From assembly GCA_005879795.1 (NCBI GenBank), contig VBKJ01000192.1, positions 1-33,302 of the forward strand: a stretch of 33,302 nt of DNA. The letters are read 5' to 3'. Shown here one piece after another: positions 5,472 to 25,658 of the stretch. The notes beneath the pieces were generated by a model, which saw nothing but the letters and a program-made list of their open reading frames with translations, had not been told where the DNA came from and made no database searches. How positions within the stretch are numbered: the stretch's first letter is position 1; each line of letters starts with the position of its first letter. Position numbers and translations under genes: made by a program. The DNA comes from Deltaproteobacteria bacterium. GTDB lineage: Bacteria; Desulfobacterota; Binatia; DP-6.

Positions 5472-6455
5472 TCAGCCGAGCCGGAAGGGCAGGTAGATGA
5501 GGGCGGACATCGCCGCCGTGCACGGGATGGTCAGGATCCACGCCAGCACCACGCTCTGCGCCACGCCCCAGCGCACGGCCGAGAAGCGCCGCGTGCTGCC
5601 GACGCCGACGATCGCGCCCGTGATGGTGTGCGTCGTGCTCACCGGGATGCCGAAGGTGGCCGAGCCGAGCAGCGCGATGGCGCCCGCCGTCTCGGCGCAG
5701 AAGCCGCCGACCGGCTGGAGCGCCGTCAGCCGCATGCCCATGGTGCGCACGATCCGCCAGCCGCCGAACGCCGTGCCGAGCGCGATCGCCGCGTGGCAGA
5801 TCAGGATGACCCAGAACGGCACGTAGAACTTCTCGCCCAGGTAGCCCGAGGTGAAGAGGAGCACGGCGATGATGCCCATCGTCTTCTGCGCGTCGTTGGT
5901 GCCGTGCCCGAGGCTGTAGCCGGCGGCCGAGACGAGCTGGAGCCGCCGGAAGGCGCGATCGATCGTGGCCGGCGTGGCCCGATAGACGAGGCGGATGATG
6001 ACCAGCATGAAGAGCGCGCCCAGGAGGAAGCCGACGAGCGGGGAGACGACGATGAAGACGACGACCTTCACCAGCCCCGCCGGCAGCAGCACCCCGAAGC
6101 CGGCCTTCGCGATCCCGGCGCCGGCGAGGCCCGCGATGAGCGCGTGCGAGGAGCTGCTCGGGAGCCCGTAGCGCCAGGTGATCAGATCCCAGAGGAAGGC
6201 GCCCACGAGCGCCGCGAAGATGACCGCGTGGTCCACCACCTCGGGGGAGACGATCCCCCTCCCCACCGTGGTCGCCACCGCCACCCCGAAGCCGAAGGCC
6301 GCCACGAAGTTGAAGAACGCCGCCCACGCCACCGCCGCACGCGGCGTGAGCACCCGGGTCGAGACGATGGTGGCGATCGAGTTGGCCGCGTCGTGGAAGC
6401 CGTTCATGAAGTCGAAGGCCAGCGCGACGAGGATGAGGAGGACGAGGACGAGCAT
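5472..6455 (-). CDS. pit: PiT-family inorganic phosphate transporter
   Basis: A 327-residue polytopic membrane protein that imports phosphate (usually as a metal-phosphate complex with H+ or Na+). Both PiT signature repeats are visible: FMNGFHDAANSIATIVSTRV near residue 16, and GHGTNDAQKTMGIIAV in the second half, with PVSTTHTITGAIVGVG near the C-terminus. The length matches short PiT proteins that are paired with DUF47 partners rather than E. coli PitA. It starts 27 nt after the DUF47 gene, so ppk2-DUF47-pit form one leftward operon; expression probably depends on the Pho-box-like repeats at 8080-8108. PiT is usually the low-affinity route, so predicted PhoB control would be notable. Confidence 0.93.
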   Translation of the reverse strand: MLVLVLLILVALAFDFMNGFHDAANSIATIVSTRVLTPRAAVAWAAFFNFVAAFGFGVAVATTVGRGIVSPEVVDHAVIFAALVGAFLWDLITWRYGLPSSSSHALIAGLAGAGIAKAGFGVLLPAGLVKVVVFIVVSPLVGFLLGALFMLVIIRLVYRATPATIDRAFRRLQLVSAAGYSLGHGTNDAQKTMGIIAVLLFTSGYLGEKFYVPFWVILICHAAIALGTAFGGWRIVRTMGMRLTALQPVGGFCAETAGAIALLGSATFGIPVSTTHTITGAIVGVGSTRRFSAVRWGVAQSVVLAWILTIPCTAAMSALIYLPFRLG

Positions 6456-6482: not shown

Positions 6483-7139
6483 TCAGGCGTACTCGAGTGC
6501 CACGCCTTCGATCACGTTGGCGACGTCCTCGCAGCGATCGATCGCGTTCTCCAGGTAGTCGTAGATCTCCTTCCACTTGACGACGTGGATGGGATCGGCG
6601 CCCTCGCGGAAGAGGCGGGCGACCGCGCGCCGCAGGAGCTGGTCGCCCAGGTTCTCGAGGCGGTTGATCTCCGTGCAGTGGGCGAGGAGGCGCGGCCGGT
6701 CTTTCAGGTCGCGCAGCGTGCCCACGGCCGCTCCCATCTCCACGACCGCCTTCTTCAGCACCTCTGCCAGCTCGCGCGCCTCGGGCTCCATGGTGCGGAT
6801 GCCGTAGAGCGCGATGCGCTCGGCCGAGGCCTCGATCAGGTCGAGGACGTCGTCCATGCGCGAGATGAGCTCGTGGATGTCGCCGCGGTCGATGGGCGTG
6901 ATGAAGGTCTGGTGCAGGCGCTCGATCACCGTGTGGGTGATCTCGTCCCCCTGGTGCTCGACGGCCTTCACCCGGACCGCCTGCTGCTCGGGATCGGCGC
7001 CGTCGTGGAGCACGGCGGCCAGGAGCTCCGCCGCCTCGCGCGCGCGCTCGGCGTGCTGCTCGAAGAGGTCGAAGAACTGCTCGCCCCCGCTCGCCGGAAG
7101 GAGGCGCGCGAAGAACCCCTTGTGCGGCGCCGTCGCCAT
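6483..7139 (-). CDS. DUF47 PhoU-like regulator of phosphate transport
   Basis: A 218-residue, entirely helical protein of the DUF47 (TIGR00153-type) family, distantly related to PhoU. The signature region is visible as RLHQTFITPIDRGDIHELIS followed by RMDDVLDLIEASAERIALY. A second half repeats the fold (NRLENLGDQLLRRAVARLFR, YLENAIDRCEDVANVIEGVA). Such proteins are nearly always encoded beside PiT transporters and are thought to modulate them, probably through bound metal ions. ATG 7139 begins MATAPHKGFFARLLP; an upstream continuation of the frame has no family similarity. It sits 47 nt after ppk2 and 27 nt before pit. The window also encodes true PhoU (20793-21476), so each transporter has its own regulator. 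Confidence 0.9.
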   Translation of the reverse strand: MATAPHKGFFARLLPASGGEQFFDLFEQHAERAREAAELLAAVLHDGADPEQQAVRVKAVEHQGDEITHTVIERLHQTFITPIDRGDIHELISRMDDVLDLIEASAERIALYGIRTMEPEARELAEVLKKAVVEMGAAVGTLRDLKDRPRLLAHCTEINRLENLGDQLLRRAVARLFREGADPIHVVKWKEIYDYLENAIDRCEDVANVIEGVALEYA

Positions 7140-7186: not shown

Positions 7187-8008
7187 TCAGCGCCCACCGA
7201 GCGCCGCCCGCAGCCGGCGCGTCTGGGCGGGCGAGAGCGCGGGGGGCGGGTAGTGGCTGTCGAGCCCCTCGAGCGCGGCGACCAGCGCCGACGCGACCGC
7301 CAGGTTGCGATACCACCGGTGGTCGGCCGGGATCACGTACCAGGGCGCGGGCCGCGTGCTGCAGCGCGTGAGGAGCTTCTCGTAGGCCGTCACGTACCGG
7401 TCCCAGAGCGCCCGCTCCTTCAAATCGCCCGCCGAGAACTTCCAGTACTTGCCCGGGTCGGCCAGGCGCTCGAGGAGCCGGCGGCGCTGCTCGCCCTTGC
7501 TGATGTGGAGGAAGAACTTCAGGATGAGGGTGCCGTTCTCGGCGAGGATGCGCTCGAAGCCGTTGATCTGATCGTAGCGCTGGCGCACGACCGCGCGCGG
7601 CACGGTGCGATGCACGCGCGGCACCAGCACGTCCTCGTAGTGCGAGCGGTTGAAGATCGTGATGTGCCCGCGCCGCGGGGCGGCGCGGTGCGCGCGCCAG
7701 AGGAAGTCGTGCGCGGCCTCCTCCTCGGTCGGCACCTTGAAGGGGACGACCTCGCAGCCGCTCGGGTTGACGCCGTTCATGACGTGCTTGACGGTGCCGT
7801 CCTTGCCCGACGTGTCCATGCCCTGGAGCACGACCAGCACCGCGTGGCGGCGTTCGGCGTAGAGTACGTCCTGGAGCTTCGCGAGCCGCGCGATGTCGCG
7901 CCCGAGCTTGGCGCGCGCCGCGCCCTCGTCGGCGTGCTTGCCGGTGTCGGCGGGGTCGATCCGATCGAGCCGGACGCGGGTGCGGGGCGGGACGCGATGA
8001 TGGGCCAT
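7187..8008 (-). CDS. PPK2-family polyphosphate:nucleotide phosphotransferase
   Basis: A 273-residue PPK2 enzyme, which transfers phosphate between polyphosphate and nucleotides. Visible motifs are Walker A GMDTSGKDG (residues 63-71), then the conserved GVNPSGCEVVPFKVPT and the lid/Walker B region IFNRSHYEDVLVPRVH (about 118-133), then FFLHISKGEQRRRLLERL and a C-terminal APWYVIPADHRWYRNL. This layout matches the group often annotated TIGR03709 (one PPK2 domain, related to AMP- or ADP-phosphorylating PPK2s); nucleotide preference cannot be assigned by reading. It is the first gene of the ppk2-DUF47-pit operon and is divergent from the Ppx gene. The 8009-8158 interval carries three phased Pho-box-like repeats pointing towards this gene. 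Confidence 0.93.
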   Translation of the reverse strand: MAHHRVPPRTRVRLDRIDPADTGKHADEGAARAKLGRDIARLAKLQDVLYAERRHAVLVVLQGMDTSGKDGTVKHVMNGVNPSGCEVVPFKVPTEEEAAHDFLWRAHRAAPRRGHITIFNRSHYEDVLVPRVHRTVPRAVVRQRYDQINGFERILAENGTLILKFFLHISKGEQRRRLLERLADPGKYWKFSAGDLKERALWDRYVTAYEKLLTRCSTRPAPWYVIPADHRWYRNLAVASALVAALEGLDSHYPPPALSPAQTRRLRAALGGR

Positions 8009-8079
8009 GGCGGCGGGCTATATCCGCCTGCCGTTCAGTCGGGCAACTGTGCACGGGTCGCGCATCCTGTTATGAGGGC

Positions 8080-8108
8080 GTGACACCGGGGTTACGGCTC
8101 GATGACGA
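8080..8108 (-). promoter_or_regulatory. Candidate PhoB box upstream of ppk2
   Basis: Read on the minus strand, three 7-mers follow each other at exactly 11-bp steps: TCGTCAT (8108-8102), CCGTAAC (8097-8091) and GTGTCAC (8086-8080). The PhoB consensus half-site is CTGTCAC/T; matches are 5/7, 5/7 and 6/7. Both the spacing and the orientation towards ppk2 (start 8008) fit. A CATAAC hexamer (8074-8069) could serve as -10, though it is closer than in E. coli. The element covers ATG 8102, which argues that the divergent Ppx protein starts further downstream. Confidence 0.55.
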
Positions 8109-8158
8109 GCGGCCATCTGCGGGCGCATCCGATGACAGACGGGACGAGGCTCGCTAGA

Positions 8159-9739
8159 GTGTCGTCCGTGCGGCTCGCGGCGATCGACGTCGGCTCGAAC
8201 TCCGTCCACCTCGTGGTCGCTGACGTGAGCGCCGACGGGCGCGTCGAGGTCGTCGACCGGGTGAAGGAGATGGTGCGCCTGGGGCGCCGCACCTTCACCA
8301 CCGGCCGGCTCCCGCGCGCGGCGATGGATCTGGCCGTGGGCGCGGTGAAGACCTTCGCGCGCCTCGCGCGCGCGCGGCGCGTGGTGCGCGTGCGCGCGGT
8401 GGCCACCAGCGCGGTGCGCGAGGCGCGCAACGGTCTCACGTTCGTGCGCCGCCTGCGCCGCGAGACCGGGCTGCCCGTCAAGGTCATCACCGGGGCCGAG
8501 GAGGCGCGCCTCATCTTCCGCGCCGCGCAGCACGCGCTCGGGCTCCACGGCGGCCCCCATCTCCTCCTCGACCTGGGCGGGGGGAGCGTCGAGCTCGTGC
8601 TCGTGCACGAGGGCCGCCCGCTCTGGTTGCGCAGCCTGCCGCTCGGCGCCGCCCGCCTGACGGAGCGCTTCCTCGCCGGCGACTCGCCCACCGCGCGCCA
8701 GGTCGAGCGCCTGGAGAAGCACCTCAAGCGCGAGCTGGGCCCGCTCCTCACGTCGGCCCGCCACGCCGGCGTGGCGCGCGTGATCGGCACCTCGGGGACC
8801 GTGAACACGCTGGTCGCGATGGCGGCGGGCGCGCGCGGGCAGGATCCGGCGCGGCTCCACGGCGCCCACGCGACGGCGCGCGAGGTCACCCGCGTCCGCC
8901 GGCGCGTGCTCGCGCTCCCGGCCGGCCGCCGGGCGGAGCTCCCCGGTATGGACGCAAAGCGCGTCGACCTCATGCCAGCGGCGGCGGTTCTCGTGGACCT
9001 CGTGCTTGCCCGCACGGGCGCGCCGCAGCTGATGGCGTGCGCTTGGGCCCTGCGCGAGGGCGTGCTGCTCGACCTGGCCGGCGTGCGCCGGGATCCGATG
9101 GCGGGGGCGGAGTACGACCGCCAGCGCGCCGTGGAGGCCCTGGCGGCGCGCTTCGTGGGGGCGAATGCGCACGGCCGCCACGTGGCGCGCCTCGCGCTGG
9201 CGCTCTTCGACGGCACGGCCGCGGCGCTCGGTCTGCCCGCGACGGCACGCGAGCTCCTCCACCATGCCGCCCTCCTCCACGACATCGGGCACGCGATCGA
9301 GCACAACCGCCACCATCACCACTCGTGCTATCTCATCCGCAACGCGGAGCTCGTCGCCTTCGACCCGCTCGAGATCGAGATCATGGCGCAGGTGGCGCGC
9401 GGCCATCGCAAGCAGATCCCGAAGCTCGCCGACCCGGAGCTGCGGGTGCTGCCCGGCGCGGCGCGGCGGGTGGTACGCGCCCTCGCCGCGCTGCTGCGGA
9501 CGGCCGACGCGCTCGACCGCACGCAATTCGGGGTGGTCCGGCGGCTCGCTGTCACGCTCTCGCGCGCCCGCCTGGTGATCGAGGTCGAGGCGGACGGCGA
9601 CGAGGCCGAGCTCGACCTGTGGGCGGCCGACCGCCGGGCGGAGCTGCTCGGGCGGCTGCTCGACCGGCCGGTGGTGCTGCGCCGCACGCGCCGTGGCGCA
9701 GCGGCGCTCCCCCAGCTGCGCGCGAGCGGAGCGTCATGA
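8159..9739 (+). CDS. ppx: Ppx/GppA exopolyphosphatase with C-terminal HD domain
   Basis: About 526 residues from GTG 8159. The N-terminal ASKHA-fold phosphatase has the family motifs AAIDVGSNSVHLVV, VATSAVREARNG, VITGAEEARLIFRA, LLLDLGGGSVELV, LPLGAARLTERFL and GTSGTVNTLVAMA. A C-terminal HD domain begins near residue 340 with HHAALLHDIGHAIEHNRHHH (H368, H374-D375). Such enzymes release Pi from polyphosphate and/or hydrolyse pppGpp; the polyphosphate neighbours favour the first. Starts at ATG 8102 and 8132 are also in frame, but 8102 lies inside the Pho-box repeats, and GAGG at 8146-8149 is well spaced for GTG 8159. The stop overlaps the next start (ATGA), so translation of the kinase-like gene is probably coupled. 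Confidence 0.88.
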   Translation: MSSVRLAAIDVGSNSVHLVVADVSADGRVEVVDRVKEMVRLGRRTFTTGRLPRAAMDLAVGAVKTFARLARARRVVRVRAVATSAVREARNGLTFVRRLRRETGLPVKVITGAEEARLIFRAAQHALGLHGGPHLLLDLGGGSVELVLVHEGRPLWLRSLPLGAARLTERFLAGDSPTARQVERLEKHLKRELGPLLTSARHAGVARVIGTSGTVNTLVAMAAGARGQDPARLHGAHATAREVTRVRRRVLALPAGRRAELPGMDAKRVDLMPAAAVLVDLVLARTGAPQLMACAWALREGVLLDLAGVRRDPMAGAEYDRQRAVEALAARFVGANAHGRHVARLALALFDGTAAALGLPATARELLHHAALLHDIGHAIEHNRHHHHSCYLIRNAELVAFDPLEIEIMAQVARGHRKQIPKLADPELRVLPGAARRVVRALAALLRTADALDRTQFGVVRRLAVTLSRARLVIEVEADGDEAELDLWAADRRAELLGRLLDRPVVLRRTRRGAAALPQLRASGAS

Positions 9740-10461
9740 GCGTGGGTGGCCGCGCGAGCGCCCTCACCGAGCCGCATCCCTACCCGGGCCGGCTCATCAC
9801 GGTGGAGGGGATCGACGGCTCGGGGAAGTCGACCCAGCTCCTCCTCCTCGACCGCTGGCTCAGCGCGCGCGGCTTCCCCGTCCGCTTCACCGAGTGGAAT
9901 TCTTCGCGTCTCGTCCGGCGGGCCATGAGGCGAGGCAAGAAGAAGGACCTGCTCACGCCGACTACCTTCAGCCTCCTGCACGCGGTCGACTTCGCCGACC
10001 GCCTCACCTACCAGATCGTCCCGCCGCTCAAGGCGGGCATGATCGTGCTCGCCGACCGCTACGTCTACACCGCCTTCAGCCGCGACGTGGCGCGCGGCGT
10101 CCATCCGGCATGGGTGCGCGCGGTCTACAGCTTCGCGCCCCGGCCGGACCTCGCGCTCTACTTCCGGGTGCCGATCGAGGTCTCGCTCGACCGCCTGCTC
10201 GGCGGGCGGGCGAAGCTCAAGTACCACGAGGCCGGCATGGACCTCGGCCTGGCGCCCGAGCCGGTGCAGAGCTTCCGCCTCTTCCAGAGCCGCGTCCTCG
10301 ACATCTACGATCGCCTGGCGGAGGAGTTCGAGCTGCGCGTGATCGACGCGACGGGCGACATCCCGACCCAGCAGAAGGTGGTCCGGCGCATGGTCCAGGA
10401 GGTGCTGCGCGGCTACGCGCGCCCGCCGGCGGTCGAGAGGGCCAATGGCGCGCGGGGCTAG
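9736..10461 (+). CDS. Thymidylate-kinase-like P-loop protein 1 (intact Walker A)
   Basis: A 241-residue P-loop kinase of the dTMP-kinase superfamily. Walker A is GIDGSGKST (G25-T33) within ITVEGIDGSGKSTQLLLLDR. The DRY motif is VLADRYVYTAFSRD (D107-Y109), preceded by TFSLLHAVDFADRL. A lid-like region reads KYHEAGMDLGLAPEP. The core matches dTMP kinase, but the gene sits between ppx and CHAD and has a close paralogue immediately downstream, unlike a housekeeping tmk. The structural kinship between dTMP kinases and PPK2 makes a polyphosphate- or nucleotide-linked role plausible; that is inference. ATG 9736 overlaps the ppx stop by 4 bp, and its 3' end overlaps the next gene by 17 bp. Confidence 0.85.
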   Translation: MSVGGRASALTEPHPYPGRLITVEGIDGSGKSTQLLLLDRWLSARGFPVRFTEWNSSRLVRRAMRRGKKKDLLTPTTFSLLHAVDFADRLTYQIVPPLKAGMIVLADRYVYTAFSRDVARGVHPAWVRAVYSFAPRPDLALYFRVPIEVSLDRLLGGRAKLKYHEAGMDLGLAPEPVQSFRLFQSRVLDIYDRLAEEFELRVIDATGDIPTQQKVVRRMVQEVLRGYARPPAVERANGARG

Positions 10462-11212
10462 GCGCGGCAGGCGGTGGTACGGCGACGGCCTCCCCTACCT
10501 CAAGACGGGGCCGCTGCCCGGACACCTGATCGTCATCGAGGGCACGGACGGGGTCGGGCGCTCGACGCAGATCGAGCTCCTGCGCCCCTGGCTCGAGCTC
10601 GAGGGCTGGGCGGTGAGCAACACGGGCTGGACCCGCTCGCCGCTGCTCTCCGACACCATCAACGAGGCCAAGGCCGGCCACGAGCTGACCGTCGTCACCT
10701 TCAGCCTGCTCTACGCCGCCGACTTCGCCGATCGCCTCGAGCACCAGATCATCCCCGCGCTGCGCGCCGGCTTCATCGTGATCGCGGACCGCTACATGTA
10801 CAACGCCTTCGCGCGCAACACGGTGATGGGGGCCGACCCGCACTGGACCCGCCAGCTCTTCGGGTGCGCGCTCATGCCCGACCTGGTCCTCTACCTCGAG
10901 ATCGACGTCGACGGCCTCCTGCCGCGTGTCGTGCAGGGCAAGGGCATGGACTACTGGGAGTCCGGCATGCACCTGGCGCTCGGCAACGACATCTTCGAGT
11001 CCTTCCAGCGCTACCAGCGGCGCCTCATCGAGGAGTACAACGTGCTCGCCAGGGAGTTCGACTTCGTGACCGTCGATGCGCGCCGATCGATCGACGCCAT
11101 CCAGGGCGAGCTGCGCGAGCACGTGGTCGCCTACCTCGCCGGGGCACGCCGCGCGCCGCCGTCCCCGGGCAGCGACCAGACCGCGAACCATCGCGTGCGC
11201 CGCCGCGGCTGA
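10445..11212 (+). CDS. Thymidylate-kinase-like P-loop protein 2 (Walker A Lys replaced by Arg)
   Basis: A 255-residue paralogue of the upstream protein, with aligned blocks throughout: PLPGHLIVIEGTDGVGRSTQ, TFSLLYAADFADRLEHQI, IVIADRYMYNAFARN (D115-Y117) and DYWESGMHLALGNDIFESFQ. The codon at the invariant Walker A Lys position is CGC, giving GTDGVGRST with Arg39. In P-loop kinases this Lys contacts the ATP phosphates, so this copy may be catalytically weak, use a different donor, or act as a regulatory partner of protein 1. The gene overlaps its partner by 17 bp and is followed one base later by the CHAD gene, so the two are likely made in step. The C-terminus carries a basic Pro/Arg tail. 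Confidence 0.82.
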   Translation: MARGARRGRRWYGDGLPYLKTGPLPGHLIVIEGTDGVGRSTQIELLRPWLELEGWAVSNTGWTRSPLLSDTINEAKAGHELTVVTFSLLYAADFADRLEHQIIPALRAGFIVIADRYMYNAFARNTVMGADPHWTRQLFGCALMPDLVLYLEIDVDGLLPRVVQGKGMDYWESGMHLALGNDIFESFQRYQRRLIEEYNVLAREFDFVTVDARRSIDAIQGELREHVVAYLAGARRAPPSPGSDQTANHRVRRRG

Positions 11213-16945: not shown

Positions 16946-17050
16946 CGCCCCTCCCTGAGGTTCGGTCTCCGCACCCCACTGGCTGAAAACTGCCCGCCAG
17001 TCGAGGGGGGCGCGCGCCCACGGACGAGATTTCTACGCCTTTTCTCGGTC

Positions 17051-17068
17051 TCGTAACGTGGCCGTCAC
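17051..17068 (+). promoter_or_regulatory. Candidate PhoB box upstream of pstS
   Basis: TCGTAAC (17051-17057) and CCGTCAC (17062-17068) lie 11 bp apart, oriented towards pstS, whose start is 68 bp downstream. They match the CTGTCAC half-site at 4/7 and 6/7. A perfect CTGTCAC also occurs at 17083-17089, but it is 21 rather than 22 bp from the second repeat. Pst operons are the classical PhoB target. A clear -10 is not visible. Confidence 0.45.
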
Positions 17069-17136
17069 ATTCGCCCGGGAGACTGTCACGAGCATACGCT
17101 GGATTGCCGGCGGGCTCCCGAAGCGAAGGAGGACGA

Positions 17137-18159
17137 ATGCGACGACGCTGGTGGTTCGCCGGACTTCTCGCCCTCGGCCTGGCACAGCTCGCGCACGCCG
17201 CGACGCTCGTGACCGGCGCGGGTGCGACCTTCCCCTACCCGCTCTACTCGAAGTGGTTCGACGAGTTCCACAAACGCAACCCCGACCTCCAGATCAACTA
17301 CCAGTCGATCGGCAGCGGCGGCGGCATCCGCCAGGTGCTCGAGGGCACCGTCGACTTCGGCGCCACCGACGGCCCCATGAGCGACGAGCAGCTCAAGTCG
17401 GCGCCGGTGCCGATCCTCCACCTGCCGACCGCGCTCGGCGCCGTCGTGCCGACCTTCAACCTGCCCGGGGTGGAGCGCATCCGCTTCACGCCCGAGGCGA
17501 TCGCGGGCATCTTCCTCGGCAGGATCACGCACTGGAACGACCCGGCGCTCGCGACGGAGAACCCGGGCGTCGCGCTCCCCGCGGCCCCGTTCGTCCCCAT
17601 GCACCGCTCCGACGGCAGCGGCACGACCTACATCTTCACCGACTACCTCGCGAAGGTGAGCCCCGAGTGGCAGCAGCGCGTCGGCCGCGGCACCTCGGTC
17701 AACTGGCCGGTCGGCCTCGGCGGCAAGGGCAACGAGGGCGTGGCCGGCCTGGTCAAACAGACGCCCAACGCGATCGGGTACGTCGAGCTGATCTACGCCG
17801 TGCAGAGCAAGCTCCCCTACGGCGACGTCCGCAACCGGAGCGGGAAGTTCGTGCAGGCGACATTGGAGAGCGTGACGGCGGCGGCCACGGCCGCCGCCGA
17901 GAAGATGCCGGAGGACTTCCGCGTCTCGATCACCGATCCGGCGGGCGCGGATGCCTATCCCATCGCGAGCTTCACCTGGCTGCTCGTCCCGACCCGCATC
18001 AAGAACGCGGACAAGGGCGCGGCGATCAAGAAGTTCCTCGCCTGGATGCTGGCCGACGGGCAGCAGCTCGCTGGTCCGCTCAACTACGCGCCGCTGCCGG
18101 CGTCCGTGGTCGCGCTCGAGCAGAAGGCGCTCGCCACGATCCAGGCCGGAGGGTTCTAG
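17137..18159 (+). CDS. pstS: PstS periplasmic phosphate-binding protein
   Basis: A 340-residue ABC phosphate receptor. The signal peptide is MRRRWWFAGLLALGLAQLAHA. Phosphate-binding segments are clear: GAGATFPYPLYSKWF at the mature N-terminus, SIGSGGGIRQVLEG, FGATDGPMSDEQL and HRSDGSGTTYIFTDYL, with IGYVELIYA later. ATG 17137 is preceded by AAGGAGG at 17126-17132, which fixes the start over an in-frame ATG 33 bp upstream. It is the first gene of pstSCAB-phoU-arsC, delivers phosphate to the PstCA permease and is the part expected to be most strongly induced by phosphate starvation. Confidence 0.96.
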   Translation: MRRRWWFAGLLALGLAQLAHAATLVTGAGATFPYPLYSKWFDEFHKRNPDLQINYQSIGSGGGIRQVLEGTVDFGATDGPMSDEQLKSAPVPILHLPTALGAVVPTFNLPGVERIRFTPEAIAGIFLGRITHWNDPALATENPGVALPAAPFVPMHRSDGSGTTYIFTDYLAKVSPEWQQRVGRGTSVNWPVGLGGKGNEGVAGLVKQTPNAIGYVELIYAVQSKLPYGDVRNRSGKFVQATLESVTAAATAAAEKMPEDFRVSITDPAGADAYPIASFTWLLVPTRIKNADKGAAIKKFLAWMLADGQQLAGPLNYAPLPASVVALEQKALATIQAGGF

Positions 18160-18179
18160 CCACGGGCCGCGCCGCTCTC

Positions 18180-19142
18180 CTGTCCTCTCCCGCCGTCCGC
18201 CTCGCGGCGGCCCGGCCACGCCGCCCGAGACGGCTCGGCGATCCGGCGTTTCGCGCCCTCTCGCTCGCCTTCGCGCTCTCGGTCATCGCCATCGCCGGCA
18301 CCATCGCCGTCGTGCTGCTGCGCCGCTCGGCGCTGGCGCGGGCGGCCTTCGGGCTGGGCTTCCTCTGGACGTCGACGTGGGACCCGGTCGCGCTCCGCTT
18401 CGGGGCCCTCCCCTTCATCTACGGGACGCTCGCCACCACCGCGATCGCGATCACGATCGCGCTCCCGCTCGGCCTCGGCGCCGCGGTCTGCCTCGCCGAG
18501 CTCATGCCCCGGCGGCTCGCCGACCCGCTCACCTTCCTGATCGAGCTGCTGGTCGCCGTGCCGAGCGTCATCTACGGCCTGGTCGGCGTATTCGTCCTCG
18601 TGCCGGCGATCCGTAGCGTCGAGCAGGCCGTCGCGCCCGTGCTCGGGTCCATCCCGCTCTTCGCGGGACCCGCCTACGGCGTGGGGCTCCTCGCGGCCGG
18701 CATCCTCCTCGCAGTCATGATCGTCCCGTTCATCGTCAGCGTGTCGCGCGAGGTCCTCCTCGCGGTGCCGCAGACGCAGCGCGACGCAGCCCTGGCGCTC
18801 GGGGCCACGCGCTGGGAGACGGTGCGCGACGTGGTCGTCCCCTACGCGCGCTCGGGCATCCTGGGCTCGGTCTTCCTTGCCCTGGCGCGCGCGCTCGGCG
18901 AGACCATGGCGGTGACCATGGTGATCGGCAACCGTCCCGAGCTCGCCGCCTCGCTCTTCGCGCCCGCCTACACGATGGCCGCCGTGCTCGCCAACGAGTT
19001 CACCGAGGCGACGGACGACGTCTACCTGGCCGCGCTGGTCGAGATCGGGCTCGTGCTGTTCGCGATCACGCTCGCGGTGAATGCGATCGCGCGGCTCCTG
19101 ATCGCCACTGTCCGGCCGGCGCCCGGCGCCGCGCGCCCATGA
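18180..19142 (+). CDS. pstC: PstC phosphate ABC permease (start codon not canonical)
   Basis: A permease with six predicted membrane helices. The first is [20 protein letters not shown]. The conserved early part [20 protein letters not shown] and [20 protein letters not shown] are characteristic. The cytoplasmic EAA loop is [20 protein letters not shown], and [14 protein letters not shown] follows. The frame is open well upstream, but between the pstS stop (18159) and helix 1 there is no ATG, GTG or TTG in any frame. The first in-frame candidate, GTG 18312, would delete helix 1. CTG 18180 is given here as a placeholder; ACG 18162 or a sequence error are alternatives. With the CTG the length is about 320 residues, normal for PstC. 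The stop overlaps the pstA start (ATGA). Confidence 0.9.
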
Positions 19143-19987
19143 ACGCGACCTACCGGCACCGCCGCCGCATCGAGCGGCTCATGTTCGGGGCGACGGCAGG
19201 CGCGACCGTGGCGACACTCGGTGTGCTGGTCTTCCTGCTCGGCTACATCGCCTGGCAGGGCATGAGCTCGCTCTCGTGGAGCTTCTTCACCGCGCTCCCG
19301 GCGCCCGTCGGCGAGGCGGGCGGTGGCATGGCGAACGCCATCGTGGGGAGCGCGAAGCTCCTCCTCACGGCGGCCATGGTCGGCATTCCCGTCGGCTTCC
19401 TCGGCGGCGTCTACCTCGCCGAGTACGGCCGCGGATCGCTCGCCAGCTGGGTCGGCTACGCGGCGGACGTGCTGAACGGCGTCCCCTCGATCGTGATCGG
19501 CATCACGGTCTACGCGCTCGTCGTCATCCCCATCGGCCACTTCTCGACCCTGGCGGGCGGGGTGGCGCTCGGCGTGATGATGGTCCCCGTCGCGCTGCGC
19601 TCGACCGAGGAGTTCCTGCGCCTCGTCCCCGACTCGCTGCGCGAGGCGGCGCTCGCGCTCGGCGCCCCGCGCTGGGTGACGATCGTGCGCGTCGTCATCC
19701 CCGCCGCCGGGCGCGGCATCACGACCGGCCTCCTCCTCTCGCTCGCGCGTGTCGCGGGCGAGACCGCACCGCTCCTCTTCACGGCGCTCAACAACCGCTT
19801 CTGGAGCCCGGGCTGGCTCCAGCCGACGGCGTCGCTCCCGGTCATGATCTTCACCTACGCGATCGCGCCCTACGAGGACTGGCACCGCCAGGCCTGGGCG
19901 GCGGGCCTCGTGCTCCTGGCCCTCGTGTTGGGGACCAATGTCCTCGCCCGCTTCCTCCTGCGCAGCGGAGCGGTGCGGAGCGCCTAG
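19139..19987 (+). CDS. pstA: PstA phosphate ABC permease
   Basis: A 282-residue membrane permease that pairs with PstC. Helices are evident from residue 18 ([20 protein letters not shown]). Family stretches include [36 protein letters not shown] and [18 protein letters not shown], then the EAA loop [20 protein letters not shown] and [16 protein letters not shown]. The start ATG 19139 overlaps the pstC stop by 4 bp. The stop shares a base with the GTG start of pstB (TAGTG), so the permease subunits and the ATPase are tightly coupled in translation. Confidence 0.96.
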
Positions 19988-20793
19988 TGCTCGACCCCGG
20001 ACTCACGCGCATCCATCCCCCGGCGGCGGCCACCGACGCGCCGATCAAGATCGCCGTGCGCGATTTGGTCGTCCACTACGGCGGCACCTGCGCCCTGGAG
20101 GCCGTGTCGCTCGACATCCCGGCGCACCGCGTGACGGCGCTGATCGGTCCGTCGGGCTGCGGCAAGTCGACGTTCCTCCGCTGTCTCAACCGCATGAACG
20201 ACCACATCCCGGGCGCGCGCGTCACCGGCCAGGTGACCATCGACGGCGACCCGATCTACGGGTCTGAGGTCGATCCCGTCGTGCTTCGCCGCCGCGTCGG
20301 GATGGTCTTCCAGAAGTCCAACCCCTTCCCCAAGTCCGTCTTCGACAACGTCGCCTTCGGGCCTCGCGTGCACGGCGAGCGCGACTCCCTGTGTCTGCGC
20401 GAGATCGTCGAGCGCACACTCCGCCAGGCTGCGCTCTGGGACGAGGTGAAGGACCGGCTCGACCGCTCCGCCCTCGAGCTCTCGGGCGGGCAGCAGCAGC
20501 GACTCTGCATCGCGCGCGCGCTCGCGGTCGAGCCCGAGGTGGTGCTCATGGACGAGCCGGCCTCGGCCCTGGACCCGATCGCGACCGCCAAGATCGAAGA
20601 GCTGATCCACGAGTTGAAAAACGCCTACACGATCGTCATCGTGACCCACAACATGCAGCAGGCCGCCCGCGTCTCGGACCTGACCGCCTATTTCTACCTG
20701 GGCCGGCTGGTCGAGTTCGGGCCGACCGAGCGCCTGTTCACCAACCCCGTGCGGCCGGAGACCGAGGACTACATCACGGGACGGTTCGGCTGA
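19987..20793 (+). CDS. pstB: PstB phosphate ABC transporter ATPase
   Basis: A 268-residue ABC ATPase that powers PstSCA. Walker A is GPSGCGKST, preceded by [10 protein letters not shown] and followed by the Pst-typical [19 protein letters not shown]. The Q-loop region is [20 protein letters not shown], the signature is [15 protein letters not shown], Walker B is [13 protein letters not shown] and the switch His is in [15 protein letters not shown]. The N-terminal 20 residues before [14 protein letters not shown] are dispensable-looking, so a start later than GTG 19987 is possible. I chose 19987 for its 1-bp overlap with pstA. Its stop overlaps the phoU start by one base. Confidence 0.96.
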
Positions 20794-21476
20794 TGCCGCT
20801 CCATACCGACCGGGCCTTCGAGGAGCAGCTCGGCCAGCTCCGTACCGCCGTCCTCGAGATGGGCGGGCTCGTGGAGGAGCAGATCGGGCAGGCGGTGCGC
20901 GCGCTCACCCAGCGCGACGAAGCGCTCGCCCACGCCACCATCGAGCGCGACCACACCGTGAACCGCTTCGACGTCGAGATCGACGACCTCTCGCTCAAGC
21001 TGCTGGCGCTCCGCCAGCCCGCGGCGCGCGACCTCCGCCTCATCACCACCACGCTCAAGATCACGACCGACCTGGAGCGCATCGGCGACATGGCGACCCA
21101 CATCGCCGAGCGCGCGATCGAGCTCGCCGCCGAGGTGCCGATCAAGCCCTACATCGACATCCCGCGGATGGCCGACGTGGCGCGCGACATGCTCCGGCGG
21201 AGCCTCGACGCCTTCGTGCGCGAGGACACCGAGCTGGCGCTGAGCGTGTGCCTCGCAGACGACACGATCGACCAGCTCCACGAGCAGCTCTTCCGGGAGC
21301 TGCTGTCCTACATGGTCGAGAACCCGGCCACGGTCAGCCGCGCCATGCGGCTCCTCTTCGTCTCCAAGTACCTCGAGCGGGTGGGCGACCACGCCACCAA
21401 CATCGCCGAGATGGTGATCTTCATGGTGAAGGGGCGCTCGATCCGGCACATGGACAAGCTGCCGCGCGAACTCTGA
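20793..21476 (+). CDS. phoU: PhoU phosphate-signalling regulator
   Basis: A 227-residue, all-helical protein made of two similar three-helix bundles. The first contains LRLITTTLKITTDLERIGDM and the second LLFVSKYLERVGDHATNIAE; the metal-binding E-R-I/V-G-D motifs are both present. PhoU links the occupancy of PstSCAB to the PhoR kinase so that the Pho response is off when phosphate is plentiful. The ATG 20793 overlaps the pstB stop (TGATG). phoB and phoR lie 1.6 kb downstream on the other strand, so the full signalling chain is local. Confidence 0.95.
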   Translation: MPLHTDRAFEEQLGQLRTAVLEMGGLVEEQIGQAVRALTQRDEALAHATIERDHTVNRFDVEIDDLSLKLLALRQPAARDLRLITTTLKITTDLERIGDMATHIAERAIELAAEVPIKPYIDIPRMADVARDMLRRSLDAFVREDTELALSVCLADDTIDQLHEQLFRELLSYMVENPATVSRAMRLLFVSKYLERVGDHATNIAEMVIFMVKGRSIRHMDKLPREL

Positions 21477-23094: not shown

Positions 23095-24960
23095 CTACCG
23101 CGCGACCTCGGCTGCCGGCCGCGCCGGCGCCGCGGCGGGCCAGAGCACCCGCACCGTGGTGCCGCGGCCGACGGCGCTGGTGATGCCGAGCTCGCCGCCA
23201 TGGGCCTGGACGATGTGCTTCACGATCGCGAGCCCGAGCCCCGTGCCGCCGAGGGCGCGCGAGCGTCCCTTGTCGACGCGGAAGAAGCGCTCGGTCAGCC
23301 GCGGCAGGTCCCGCGCGGGGATGCCGACGCCCGTGTCCTCGACGGCGATCTCGACCATGCCGTCGTGCTCGGCGCCGCTGGCGGCGGCCCGCACGAACAC
23401 GCGGCCGCCCCCCGGCGTGTACTTGATCGCGTTGTCGACCAGGTTGATGAGCACCTGCCGGAAGCGATCCGCGTCAGCCTCGAGCGCGGGGCTGGCCGGG
23501 TCGACCTGCGCGCCGAGCTCGACGCCACCCCGCGCCGCCGTGTCGGAGAGGATCTGGAGCGCGTCCTCCACCGCGGGCGCAACGGCGACCGTGCCGAGGC
23601 GGAGCGGGCTGCGCCCCAGCTCCAGGTCGGAGAGGGTGAGCAGGTCGTCGATCAGCCGCCCGAGGCGCTCCGAGTGCCGGTCGATGACCGAGAGAAAACG
23701 CCGCCGCGCCTCGCGGTCGTCGCCCGCGGGGCCGAGGAGGGTCTCCGCGTAGCCCTTGATGGCCGTGACCGGCGTGCGCAGCTCGTGCGACACGTTGGCG
23801 ACGAAGTCGCGGCGCACGACCTCCAGGCGGCGCAGCTCGGTGACGTCGTGCAGCACGAGCACGTAGCCGAAGGGCTGGCCGTCGGGGCCGCACAGCCGAG
23901 CCCCGTTCACCTGGAGGGTCGTGCGCTCGGCGCCCTCGAGCATCAGGTCGCGCGAGAGGACCGTCTCGCCCCCGGCGAGCCCGCGCAGCATCTCGCTCAC
24001 CTGCGGCTGGCGCGCGACCTCGACGAGCGACCGCCCGGCGCCGTCGAGGCCCGCGGGCAGGCCGAGCAGCTCGCGCGCACGCTCGTTCATGAGCGCCACC
24101 CGGCCGACCAGGTCGGTGACCAGCACGCCCTCCACCATGCCGCGCAGGATCGCCTCCAGCCGCTCGCGCTCGACGCGCAGCGCCGCGATGGTGGCCGCCA
24201 CCTCGCGCGCCATCTCGGCGAGCTGCGCCTCGAGGACGCCCAGGTCGTCGCGCCGCTCGGGCGCCAGGTAGGGCGCGGGGGCGCCGCCCGCGACGGCGCG
24301 CGCGAACGCGACCAGCCGCTGGATGCGGCGCAGCACGCGGCGCGAGAGGACGAGCGAGGTCGCGAGGCCGAGGAGCATCGCCGCGAGGAGCCCGATGACG
24401 AGGAGCCGGCGGAGATGCGCCACATTCTCCGCCACCGCCGTCAAGGGCAGCGCCGTGCGCACGACGCGCACCGCGTCGGCGCGCGTCTGCAGCCAGGCGG
24501 TGTAGAGAAGCAGCGCGCCGACCGTGGCGCTGTGGCGGACGGCCTGGCCGCGGCCCATGGTGAGGGCGTCCTTGACCTCGGGCCGATCGGCGTGGTTCTC
24601 GAGCGACTCCGAGGAGCGCGTCGACTCGCCGAGCACGCGGCCGTCCGCCGCGATCACGGTGAGGCGGACGCCGAGGTCGGCGGCGAGCTGCGCGCAGGCC
24701 ACGTCGAGCGGCGCGCCGGCCGTCCACGGCAGCGCCTCCCCCGCGACGCGCGCCTCGGCCAGGAGGCGCTCGCCGAGCGTCTCGATCTGGTGCCGCTCGA
24801 CCGTGAGCGCGACGTAGGGGATCGCCGTCGCGAGCGCGGCGCCGAGCGCCGCGAGCGTCGGCAGGACGAACTGGAGGACGAGCCTACGGCTCGAGCGCGT
24901 CGGGGTTGAACTTGTAGCCGACGCCGCGGACGGTGAGGATGAGCTCGGGGTTGGCGTCAT
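23095..24960 (-). CDS. phoR: PhoR-like sensor histidine kinase (start uncertain)
   Basis: About 621 residues from ATG 24960, or about 595 from the membrane segment. An N-terminal helix (LPTLAALGAALATAIPYVAL) is followed by a periplasmic domain, then a second membrane helix (LLVIGLLAAMLLGLATSLVL), HAMP and PAS domains (GMVEGVLVTDLVGRVALMNE). The kinase core has an H-box FVANVSHELRTPVTAIKGY, N-box LINLVDNAIKYTPGGG, G1 VEDTGVGIP and G2 GGTGLGLAIVKHI. It senses phosphate status with PhoU and phosphorylates PhoB. The only canonical start near the membrane segment is ATG 24960, which overlaps phoB by 77 bp and adds a Ser/Pro/Thr-rich leader. A non-canonical start next to the phoB stop is equally possible. 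Confidence 0.92.
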   Translation of the reverse strand: MTPTPSSSSPSAASATSSTPTRSSRRLVLQFVLPTLAALGAALATAIPYVALTVERHQIETLGERLLAEARVAGEALPWTAGAPLDVACAQLAADLGVRLTVIAADGRVLGESTRSSESLENHADRPEVKDALTMGRGQAVRHSATVGALLLYTAWLQTRADAVRVVRTALPLTAVAENVAHLRRLLVIGLLAAMLLGLATSLVLSRRVLRRIQRLVAFARAVAGGAPAPYLAPERRDDLGVLEAQLAEMAREVAATIAALRVERERLEAILRGMVEGVLVTDLVGRVALMNERARELLGLPAGLDGAGRSLVEVARQPQVSEMLRGLAGGETVLSRDLMLEGAERTTLQVNGARLCGPDGQPFGYVLVLHDVTELRRLEVVRRDFVANVSHELRTPVTAIKGYAETLLGPAGDDREARRRFLSVIDRHSERLGRLIDDLLTLSDLELGRSPLRLGTVAVAPAVEDALQILSDTAARGGVELGAQVDPASPALEADADRFRQVLINLVDNAIKYTPGGGRVFVRAAASGAEHDGMVEIAVEDTGVGIPARDLPRLTERFFRVDKGRSRALGGTGLGLAIVKHIVQAHGGELGITSAVGRGTTVRVLWPAAAPARPAAEVAR

Positions 24961-25600
24961 CGCGCTCGATGCGTCTCCGCAGCCGGCGGACGTGGACGTC
25001 CACGGTGCGCGGCTCGACGTGCGTGTCGGGGCCCCATACGAGGTCCAGGAGCTGGAGCCGATCGTACACCCGATTGGGGTGGCGGACGAAGAACTTGAGG
25101 AGCTCGAACTCCCGCAGGGAGAGGCCGAGGCGCTCCCCATCGATGAACCCCTCGTAGGTGTCGAAGTCGAGCCGCAGGCGGCCCCGCTCGAAGATCTCGT
25201 GCGGGGCCGGGGTGTCCTCGCCGTGCGTGCGCCGGAGCACGGCCCGCACCCGCGCCACCAGCTCGCGCGGGCTGAACGGCTTGGTCACGTAGTCGTCGGC
25301 TCCGAACTCGAGGCCGAGGACCCGGTCCACCTCCGCCGCCTTGGCGGTGAGCATGATGACCGGGAGGGCGCGCGTCCCCTCGGCGGCCCGCAGGCGCCGG
25401 CAGACCTCGAGCCCGTCCATCGCCGGCAGCATCAGGTCGAGCACTACGAGCGCGGGCCGCTCGGCCACCACCACGGTCAGGGCGCTCTCGCCCGACTCCG
25501 CCTCACGGACGGCATAGCCTTCCTGCTCGAGGTGGAAGCGGACGAGCTCGCGGATGTCCTTCTCGTCCTCGACCACGAGGATCGTGCGCTTGACGCCCAC
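24884..25600 (-). CDS. phoB: PhoB-like OmpR-family response regulator
   Basis: A 238-residue regulator. The receiver domain (1-120) has the acidic cluster E11-D12-E13, phospho-acceptor D55 in VVLDLMLPAMDG, T85 and K107 (VTKPFSPREL). The C-terminal winged helix contains LSLREFELLKFFVRHPNRVY and the recognition-helix region HVEPRTVDVHVRRLRRRIER, ending RGVGYKFNPD. It should bind 11-bp-phased CTGTCAC-like repeats, four sets of which I list in this window. It is the first gene of phoB-phoR. Three such repeats lie 30-58 bp upstream of ATG 25600, suggesting autoregulation. Confidence 0.95.
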   Translation of the reverse strand: MGVKRTILVVEDEKDIRELVRFHLEQEGYAVREAESGESALTVVVAERPALVVLDLMLPAMDGLEVCRRLRAAEGTRALPVIMLTAKAAEVDRVLGLEFGADDYVTKPFSPRELVARVRAVLRRTHGEDTPAPHEIFERGRLRLDFDTYEGFIDGERLGLSLREFELLKFFVRHPNRVYDRLQLLDLVWGPDTHVEPRTVDVHVRRLRRRIERDDANPELILTVRGVGYKFNPDALEP

Positions 25601-25629: not shown

Positions 25630-25658
25630 ATGACACGCCGGTGACGGGACGGTGAACT
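25630..25658 (-). promoter_or_regulatory. Candidate PhoB box upstream of phoB
   Basis: Read on the minus strand: AGTTCAC (25658-25652), CCGTCAC (25647-25641) and GTGTCAT (25636-25630), at exactly 11-bp steps. Matches to the CTGTCAC/T half-site are 4/7, 6/7 and 6/7. A weak -10 (TAGCCT, 25619-25614) lies 10 bp beyond the last repeat, close to the usual PhoB promoter spacing, which would give a very short leader before ATG 25600. Confidence 0.6.

Follow-up and report, generated by a model that had tools for sequence, protein, structure and literature searches.

Architecture of the Array and Its Locus

A 29-bp array of three phased heptamers upstream of ppk2-DUF47-pit is, on good support, a Pho-box array of the same type as those that this genome carries at its pstS and phoB promoters. 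It faces these genes and most probably serves as a PhoB operator that raises their transcription upon phosphate limitation, with basal expression retained. The DNA itself shows the array, how rare it is and that it is akin to those at pstS and phoB, as well as the promoters on both sides of it and an intact DNA-reading helix in the encoded PhoB.

The window (the whole stretch of 33,302 nucleotides that was analyzed, contig C192 of a 4.1-Mb genome in 280 contigs, with a GC content of 72.6%) is a phosphate and polyphosphate locus. On the minus strand lie ppk2, encoding a polyphosphate kinase 2 family protein (7187–8008; Pfam PF03976, and TIGR03709 above its cut-off), a DUF47/PhoU_div gene of the Pit accessory protein type (6483–7139; PF01865), and pit, encoding a PiT-type phosphate transporter (5472–6455; PF01384). 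These three genes are presumably co-transcribed, and a search for intrinsic terminators inside ppk2-DUF47-pit found none. Divergent from ppk2, on the plus strand, lies ppx (8168–9739), assigned to the Ppx/GppA exopolyphosphatases by Pfam and homology, followed rightward by two thymidylate-kinase-like genes, a CHAD gene and a SixA-like gene. The window further holds the pstSCAB-phoU operon (17104–21476, plus strand, from profile searches), a PhoR-like kinase, and PhoB. An earlier sequence-only reading of this DNA mentioned neither pst, phoU, phoR and phoB nor the divergence of ppx on the far side of the array.

Two further observations concern these neighbors. The thymidylate-kinase-like genes (9724–11212) follow ppx in most relatives examined (loci L216, L217, L218, L219, L224 and L228) and share ∼71–83% identity among relatives, compared to 47–68% for ppx; they are possibly a polyphosphate-linked nucleotide kinase pair. 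In addition, a Porin_5 family gene (PF16930; 15578–16945) diverges from pstS and shares the region of the pstS Pho array; it is linked to pst in relatives also and is possibly a phosphate porin.

Pho boxes are tandem 11-nt direct repeat units bound by PhoB or PhoP. Between 8108 and 8080 on the minus strand, we find unit 1, TCGTCAT (8102–8108), unit 2, CCGTAAC (8091–8097), and unit 3, GTGTCAC (8080–8086), each identified by pattern scan and matrix scores, separated by the spacers CGAG and CCCG and thus in exact 11-bp phase. All are oriented toward ppk2, whose start codon lies at 8008, and away from ppx. This bears out the sequence-only reading, which had described three minus-strand heptamers at this spacing pointing to ppk2, and to which the pattern scan adds a possible, weak fourth unit in phase, TCATAAC (8069–8075, minus strand), such that units 2–4 match the pattern with one mismatch. 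The array therefore has three, possibly four, 7-nt direct repeats with 4-nt gaps, where at least two define a Pho box. An AT-rich 4-nt spacer has also been given for the Pho box (PMC3131613), which the spacers here are not; another account speaks of four less conserved nucleotides between units and does not demand AT-richness (PMC4415409). As the spacers of the pstS array (GTGG) and the phoB array (CGTC and CGGC) in the same genome are likewise GC-rich, we do not treat AT-richness as a requirement.

Rarity of the Array and Its Similarity to Those of pstS and phoB

The pattern YGTMAY, taken three times at 11-bp phase, has a single perfect match in the 4.1-Mb genome, which is the array before ppk2. 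When up to two mismatches are allowed, there are 5 matches (at 4 loci) in the whole genome compared to 4 for the reversed control, so that the bare count is not enriched and proves nothing; it is the identity of the matched loci that is informative. Besides the array, these matches are the array shifted by one unit, the pstS promoter, the phoB promoter, and one unrelated place, that is, pstS and phoB make up two of the three other loci, and both lie in this window. The pstS array (17040–17068, plus strand) consists of a weak TTTTCTC followed by TCGTAAC-GTGG-CCGTCAC, and the phoB array (25630–25658, minus strand) of AGTTCAC, CCGTCAC and GTGTCAT, with both arrays located by pattern and matrix scans. 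We also note an extra CTGTCAC downstream of the pstS array (17083–17089), one base off the 11-bp phase.

Two exact phased units occur 14 times in the whole genome (3 times for the reversed control), with 4 of the 14 matches inside the 33-kb window. None of the ten outside it has an obvious phosphate gene, and about half fall inside probable coding sequence; we therefore claim no further member of the regulon from them.

The array was also scored with two matrices against a background of 400 kb of the same genome on both strands, which is ∼10% of the genome, the pattern scans having covered all of it. With a clade matrix derived from pstS promoters elsewhere in the class, and containing no sequence of this genome, the array ranks first in the window at 25.7 bits, followed by the pstS array (24.5) and the phoB array (16.1), while the background maximum is 13.0. 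An E. coli-style matrix, based on E. coli boxes, likewise gives the three boxes the top score of the window (17.1), while the highest background value is 8.4. None of the 798,880 background positions attains the array score with either matrix, nor does any of 20,000 shuffled versions of the intergenic region. The sequence-only reading had proposed such a PhoB-matrix scan, in which random intergenic sites might have scored equally well; no such site was seen in the 400 kb, and the likeness of the array to the consensus and to the genome's own presumed Pho promoters stands above background. We note, however, that the YGTMAY pattern was written after the site had been seen and that the clade matrix was picked with this pattern, which makes the YGTMAY scans, the two-unit counts and the clade-matrix test partly circular. 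The E. coli-style matrix result and the identity of the other matched loci are outside that circularity.

Two other sites from these scans are worth recording. The strongest two-unit Pho-like site of the background stretch, CCGTAAC-ATCC-TCGTAAC (L185, G000:C136:39494-39510; 23.3 bits), has no evident gene nearby in the proper direction. Within the window, the E. coli-style matrix gives its highest two-unit score to TGGTCAT-CCGA-TTGTCAC (1845–1862), a site overlapping the beginning of a Tad/VWA-type gene for which no connection to phosphate is evident.

Promoters Flanking the Array

Between the array and ppk2 lies a putative basal promoter, TTGCCC-18-TATAGC (8017–8046, minus strand), ending 8 nt before the ATG and thus nearly leaderless. 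The same element precedes the ppk2 orthologs of two relatives, G006 and G018 (with a shuffle rate of 2e-5 per sequence), where ppk2 has other neighbors and no Pho boxes. Its conservation there without Pho boxes indicates that the PhoB array is an addition upstream of a basal promoter; it occupies the stretch ∼34 to 62 bp upstream of the −35 element, without overlapping it. Control of ppk2 is thus probably basal plus PhoB. The proposal of the sequence-only reading that PiT and PPK2 are under PhoB accordingly holds insofar as the array facing the operon is well supported, but needs to be amended for the separate basal promoter at 8046–8017.

A candidate −10 element of a PhoB-dependent promoter, CAGGAT (8064–8069, minus strand), is found 10 nt after unit 3. 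It is a weak one, retaining just A2, A5 and T6 of TATAAT, and hence a poor candidate. Comparable spacing is seen for TAGCCT at phoB and for TAAGCT, TAGCCT, TAGAGA and TAAACT at the pstS genes of relatives, such that phoB and the pstS of several relatives have a better TAnnnT-like hexamer 10–11 nt from the last unit.

The divergent ppx gene is preceded by a sigma-70-like promoter of its own, ATGACA-17-TAGAGT (8132–8160, plus strand), which ends 7 nt before the GTG start. A TGAC-N16-20-TAnnnT element right before the ppx start, mostly at 6 nt, is kept in 26 of the 31 class genomes compared (shuffle rate of 0.0007), suggesting that ppx is probably transcribed without a leader and independently of the array. 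A ppx start at the ATG at 8102, which would place unit 1 inside ppx, was also considered and rejected, as homology and the conserved promoter point to the GTG at 8168.

The PhoB Regulator and a Proposed Mechanism

The window encodes an OmpR-family response regulator, PhoB (24884–25600, minus strand), with a conserved DNA-contact helix. At 271.9 bits it falls under the curated cut-off of 296.2 for the TIGR02154 equivalog, yet it is the best match to this family in the genome. As it also adjoins a PhoR-like kinase and lies in the pst locus, it probably works like PhoB even though it stands outside the strict equivalog. Its winged helix–turn–helix domain, aligned to E. coli PhoB (1gxp), retains the RTVDVHxRRLR and TVRG residues, which we take to be the DNA-reading contacts of PhoB, and the protein probably binds the array. 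The three phased units at the phoB promoter further suggest autoregulation.

From these observations, we infer that PhoB binds the array and acts there by activation rather than repression, the former being favored because the array lies upstream of, and not over, the basal promoter, as would be expected of an activator. When phosphate becomes limiting, PhoB, whose gene lies 17 kb away, would in its phosphorylated form bind the 11-bp units head to tail and raise leftward transcription of ppk2-DUF47-pit, either from a −10 element of its own ten nucleotides past unit 3 or by boosting the basal ppk2 promoter ∼35 nt further down. PPK2 and PiT would then be expressed at a basal level and further induced when phosphate is short, while the divergent ppx operon would be served by its own leaderless promoter.

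Arrays and Gene Neighborhoods in Related Genomes

A close PPK2 is encoded in 3 of 148 genomes of the class, and beside ppx in this genome only; the other two, G006 and G018, have neither the array nor the neighborhood at their ppk2. With the arrangement present in one genome only, the site is not directly footprintable by comparison, and footprinting on ppk2 orthologs was abandoned, these two alone being close. Among GTDB contigs of named organisms, we found only PPK2s of up to 58% identity. The DUF47-pit loci of relatives showed no convincing array within 1.5 kb upstream of pit, and in four genomes of the same family (G002, G004, G005 and G006) DUF47-pit adjoins a glutamine-amidotransferase gene, without boxes; the corresponding gene here (25732) adjoins phoB.

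Boxes of the same type do occur at the pstS of eight relatives (G003, G004, G005, G006, G024, G031, G052 and G039), and arrays adjoin ppx in G004, G005, G018 and G037. The array of G004, a member of a sister genus, aligns with the one described here and has the same orientation at almost the same distance from ppx (62 bp, compared to 59 bp here), and faces pstS. Those of G018 and G037 face ppx, and both genomes are without the conserved TGAC/TAnnnT ppx promoter. These comparisons suggest that the array was originally associated with ppx and that, in the one genome with this arrangement, ppk2-DUF47-pit later came to lie before it. Such promoter capture, in which genes that are split between box-free loci elsewhere in the class were assembled beside an older ppx-side array, is a tentative explanation that we put at somewhat below even. 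If it is correct, polyphosphate-nucleotide phosphotransfer by PPK2 and uptake by PiT came under the starvation response with the basal promoter retained.

Two of the related loci show features of their own. In G037 (L219, G037:C90:1-16000), a single strand carries ppx, the two kinase genes, phoB, phoR, a porin gene and pstSCA, and transcription of much of this Pho locus may start from a perfect Pho array that precedes ppx. In G005 (L216:9085-10914), the array next to ppx is weaker and points to an ORF of 609 aa that has no Pfam match but contains a signal-peptide-like stretch at an internal Met, making it a candidate new Pho-regulated exported protein.

Alternative Explanations

The ppx-adjoining arrays of four relatives, two of which face ppx, raise the question of whether ppx, alone or together with ppk2, is the target of the array. 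We consider this unlikely, as the units here face away from ppx, and ppx has its own conserved promoter, which is found also in box-free relatives, whereas the two genomes with ppx-facing arrays lack it. Somewhat less likely still is a role of the PhoB operator as a brake, shutting off low-affinity uptake upon starvation. The orfA-pit operon of Sinorhizobium meliloti is indeed repressed upon Pi starvation (PMC3131613, PMC8829014), and ppk2 has a complete basal promoter that could be repressed; however, the S. meliloti box lies just before the translation start, while the array here lies well above the basal −35, in a manner like that of relatives' pstS arrays, which are upstream of the promoter.

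It is also conceivable that the array is an inherited remnant, namely a former pstS promoter left next to ppx after rearrangement and without effect, with ppk2 transcribed from its basal promoter. The equivalent G004 array facing pstS and the conservation of the ppk2 basal promoter would agree with this, but none of the three units has decayed, and the array scores at least as high as those at pstS and phoB in this genome, making a functionless relic very unlikely. Finally, the choice of the pattern after the site had been seen, and the loose matches not clearly above the reversed control, would fit a chance similarity without PhoB binding. Given the zero background positions with the independent E. 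coli-style matrix, the outcome of the shuffles, the fact that other hits fall at the promoters of pstS and phoB, and the match to the array of G004, we regard chance as extremely improbable.

Comparison with Known Systems

Like the E. coli-type Pho box, the array has 7 conserved and 4 variable nucleotides repeated head to tail every 11 bp; unlike it, the units here lean to YCGTMAC, with GC-rich spacers and three to four units. Control of Pit varies between species (PMC4415409), and Pho control of a PiT transporter is not unusual, with Streptomyces pitH2 activated and S. meliloti orfA-pit repressed, such that the contrast drawn by the sequence-only reading with a "usual constitutive" PiT was overstated.

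Streptomyces pitH2 has four 11-nt direct repeat units, is bound by PhoP and is induced by low phosphate (PMC7866108), and thus resembles the present case as a PiT gene with phased 11-nt units, but it lies away from the pap-pitH1/ppk cluster. In that cluster, pap-pitH1 has no PHO box, whereas ppk, which sits with pit and pst, has PHO boxes, as does pstS (PMC7866108). The PiT described here, preceded by an accessory-type DUF47 gene, resembles the box-free pap-pitH1, but is led by ppk2. The Streptomyces cluster likewise links a polyphosphate kinase and pst with Pit and the Pit accessory protein (PMC7866108); the kinase there is Ppk, whereas here it is of the PPK2 family, the boxes face ppk2-DUF47-pit, and the locus includes ppx, CHAD and phoBR. 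The S. meliloti operon is similar in combining Pit with a small upstream gene, orfA, annotated as a Pit accessory protein, and in its PhoB-linked control (PMC3131613, PMC8829014), but differs in being repressed and in having its box at the translation start (PMC3131613). PolR of Microlunatus phosphovorus is alike in that a single response regulator binds repeats in 11-bp phase before pit, pstS, ppk and ppgk, but it is tied to oxygen and not Pi, and it did not bind ppk2 promoters (PMC6754071).

In the titles, abstracts and passages of open-licence papers that we consulted, we came across no DUF47-pit operon that is led by ppk2 and carries a Pho box. With the present locus, the Pho regulon of this high-GC lineage would come to include PPK2 as well as a PiT transporter, which suggests that both serve the starvation response here besides basal needs, and the locus provides a clear case in which the neighbor of a Pho array differs between sister genera. 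Tandem Pho boxes and variable Pit control are already known, and it is the arrangement that makes the locus moderately interesting.
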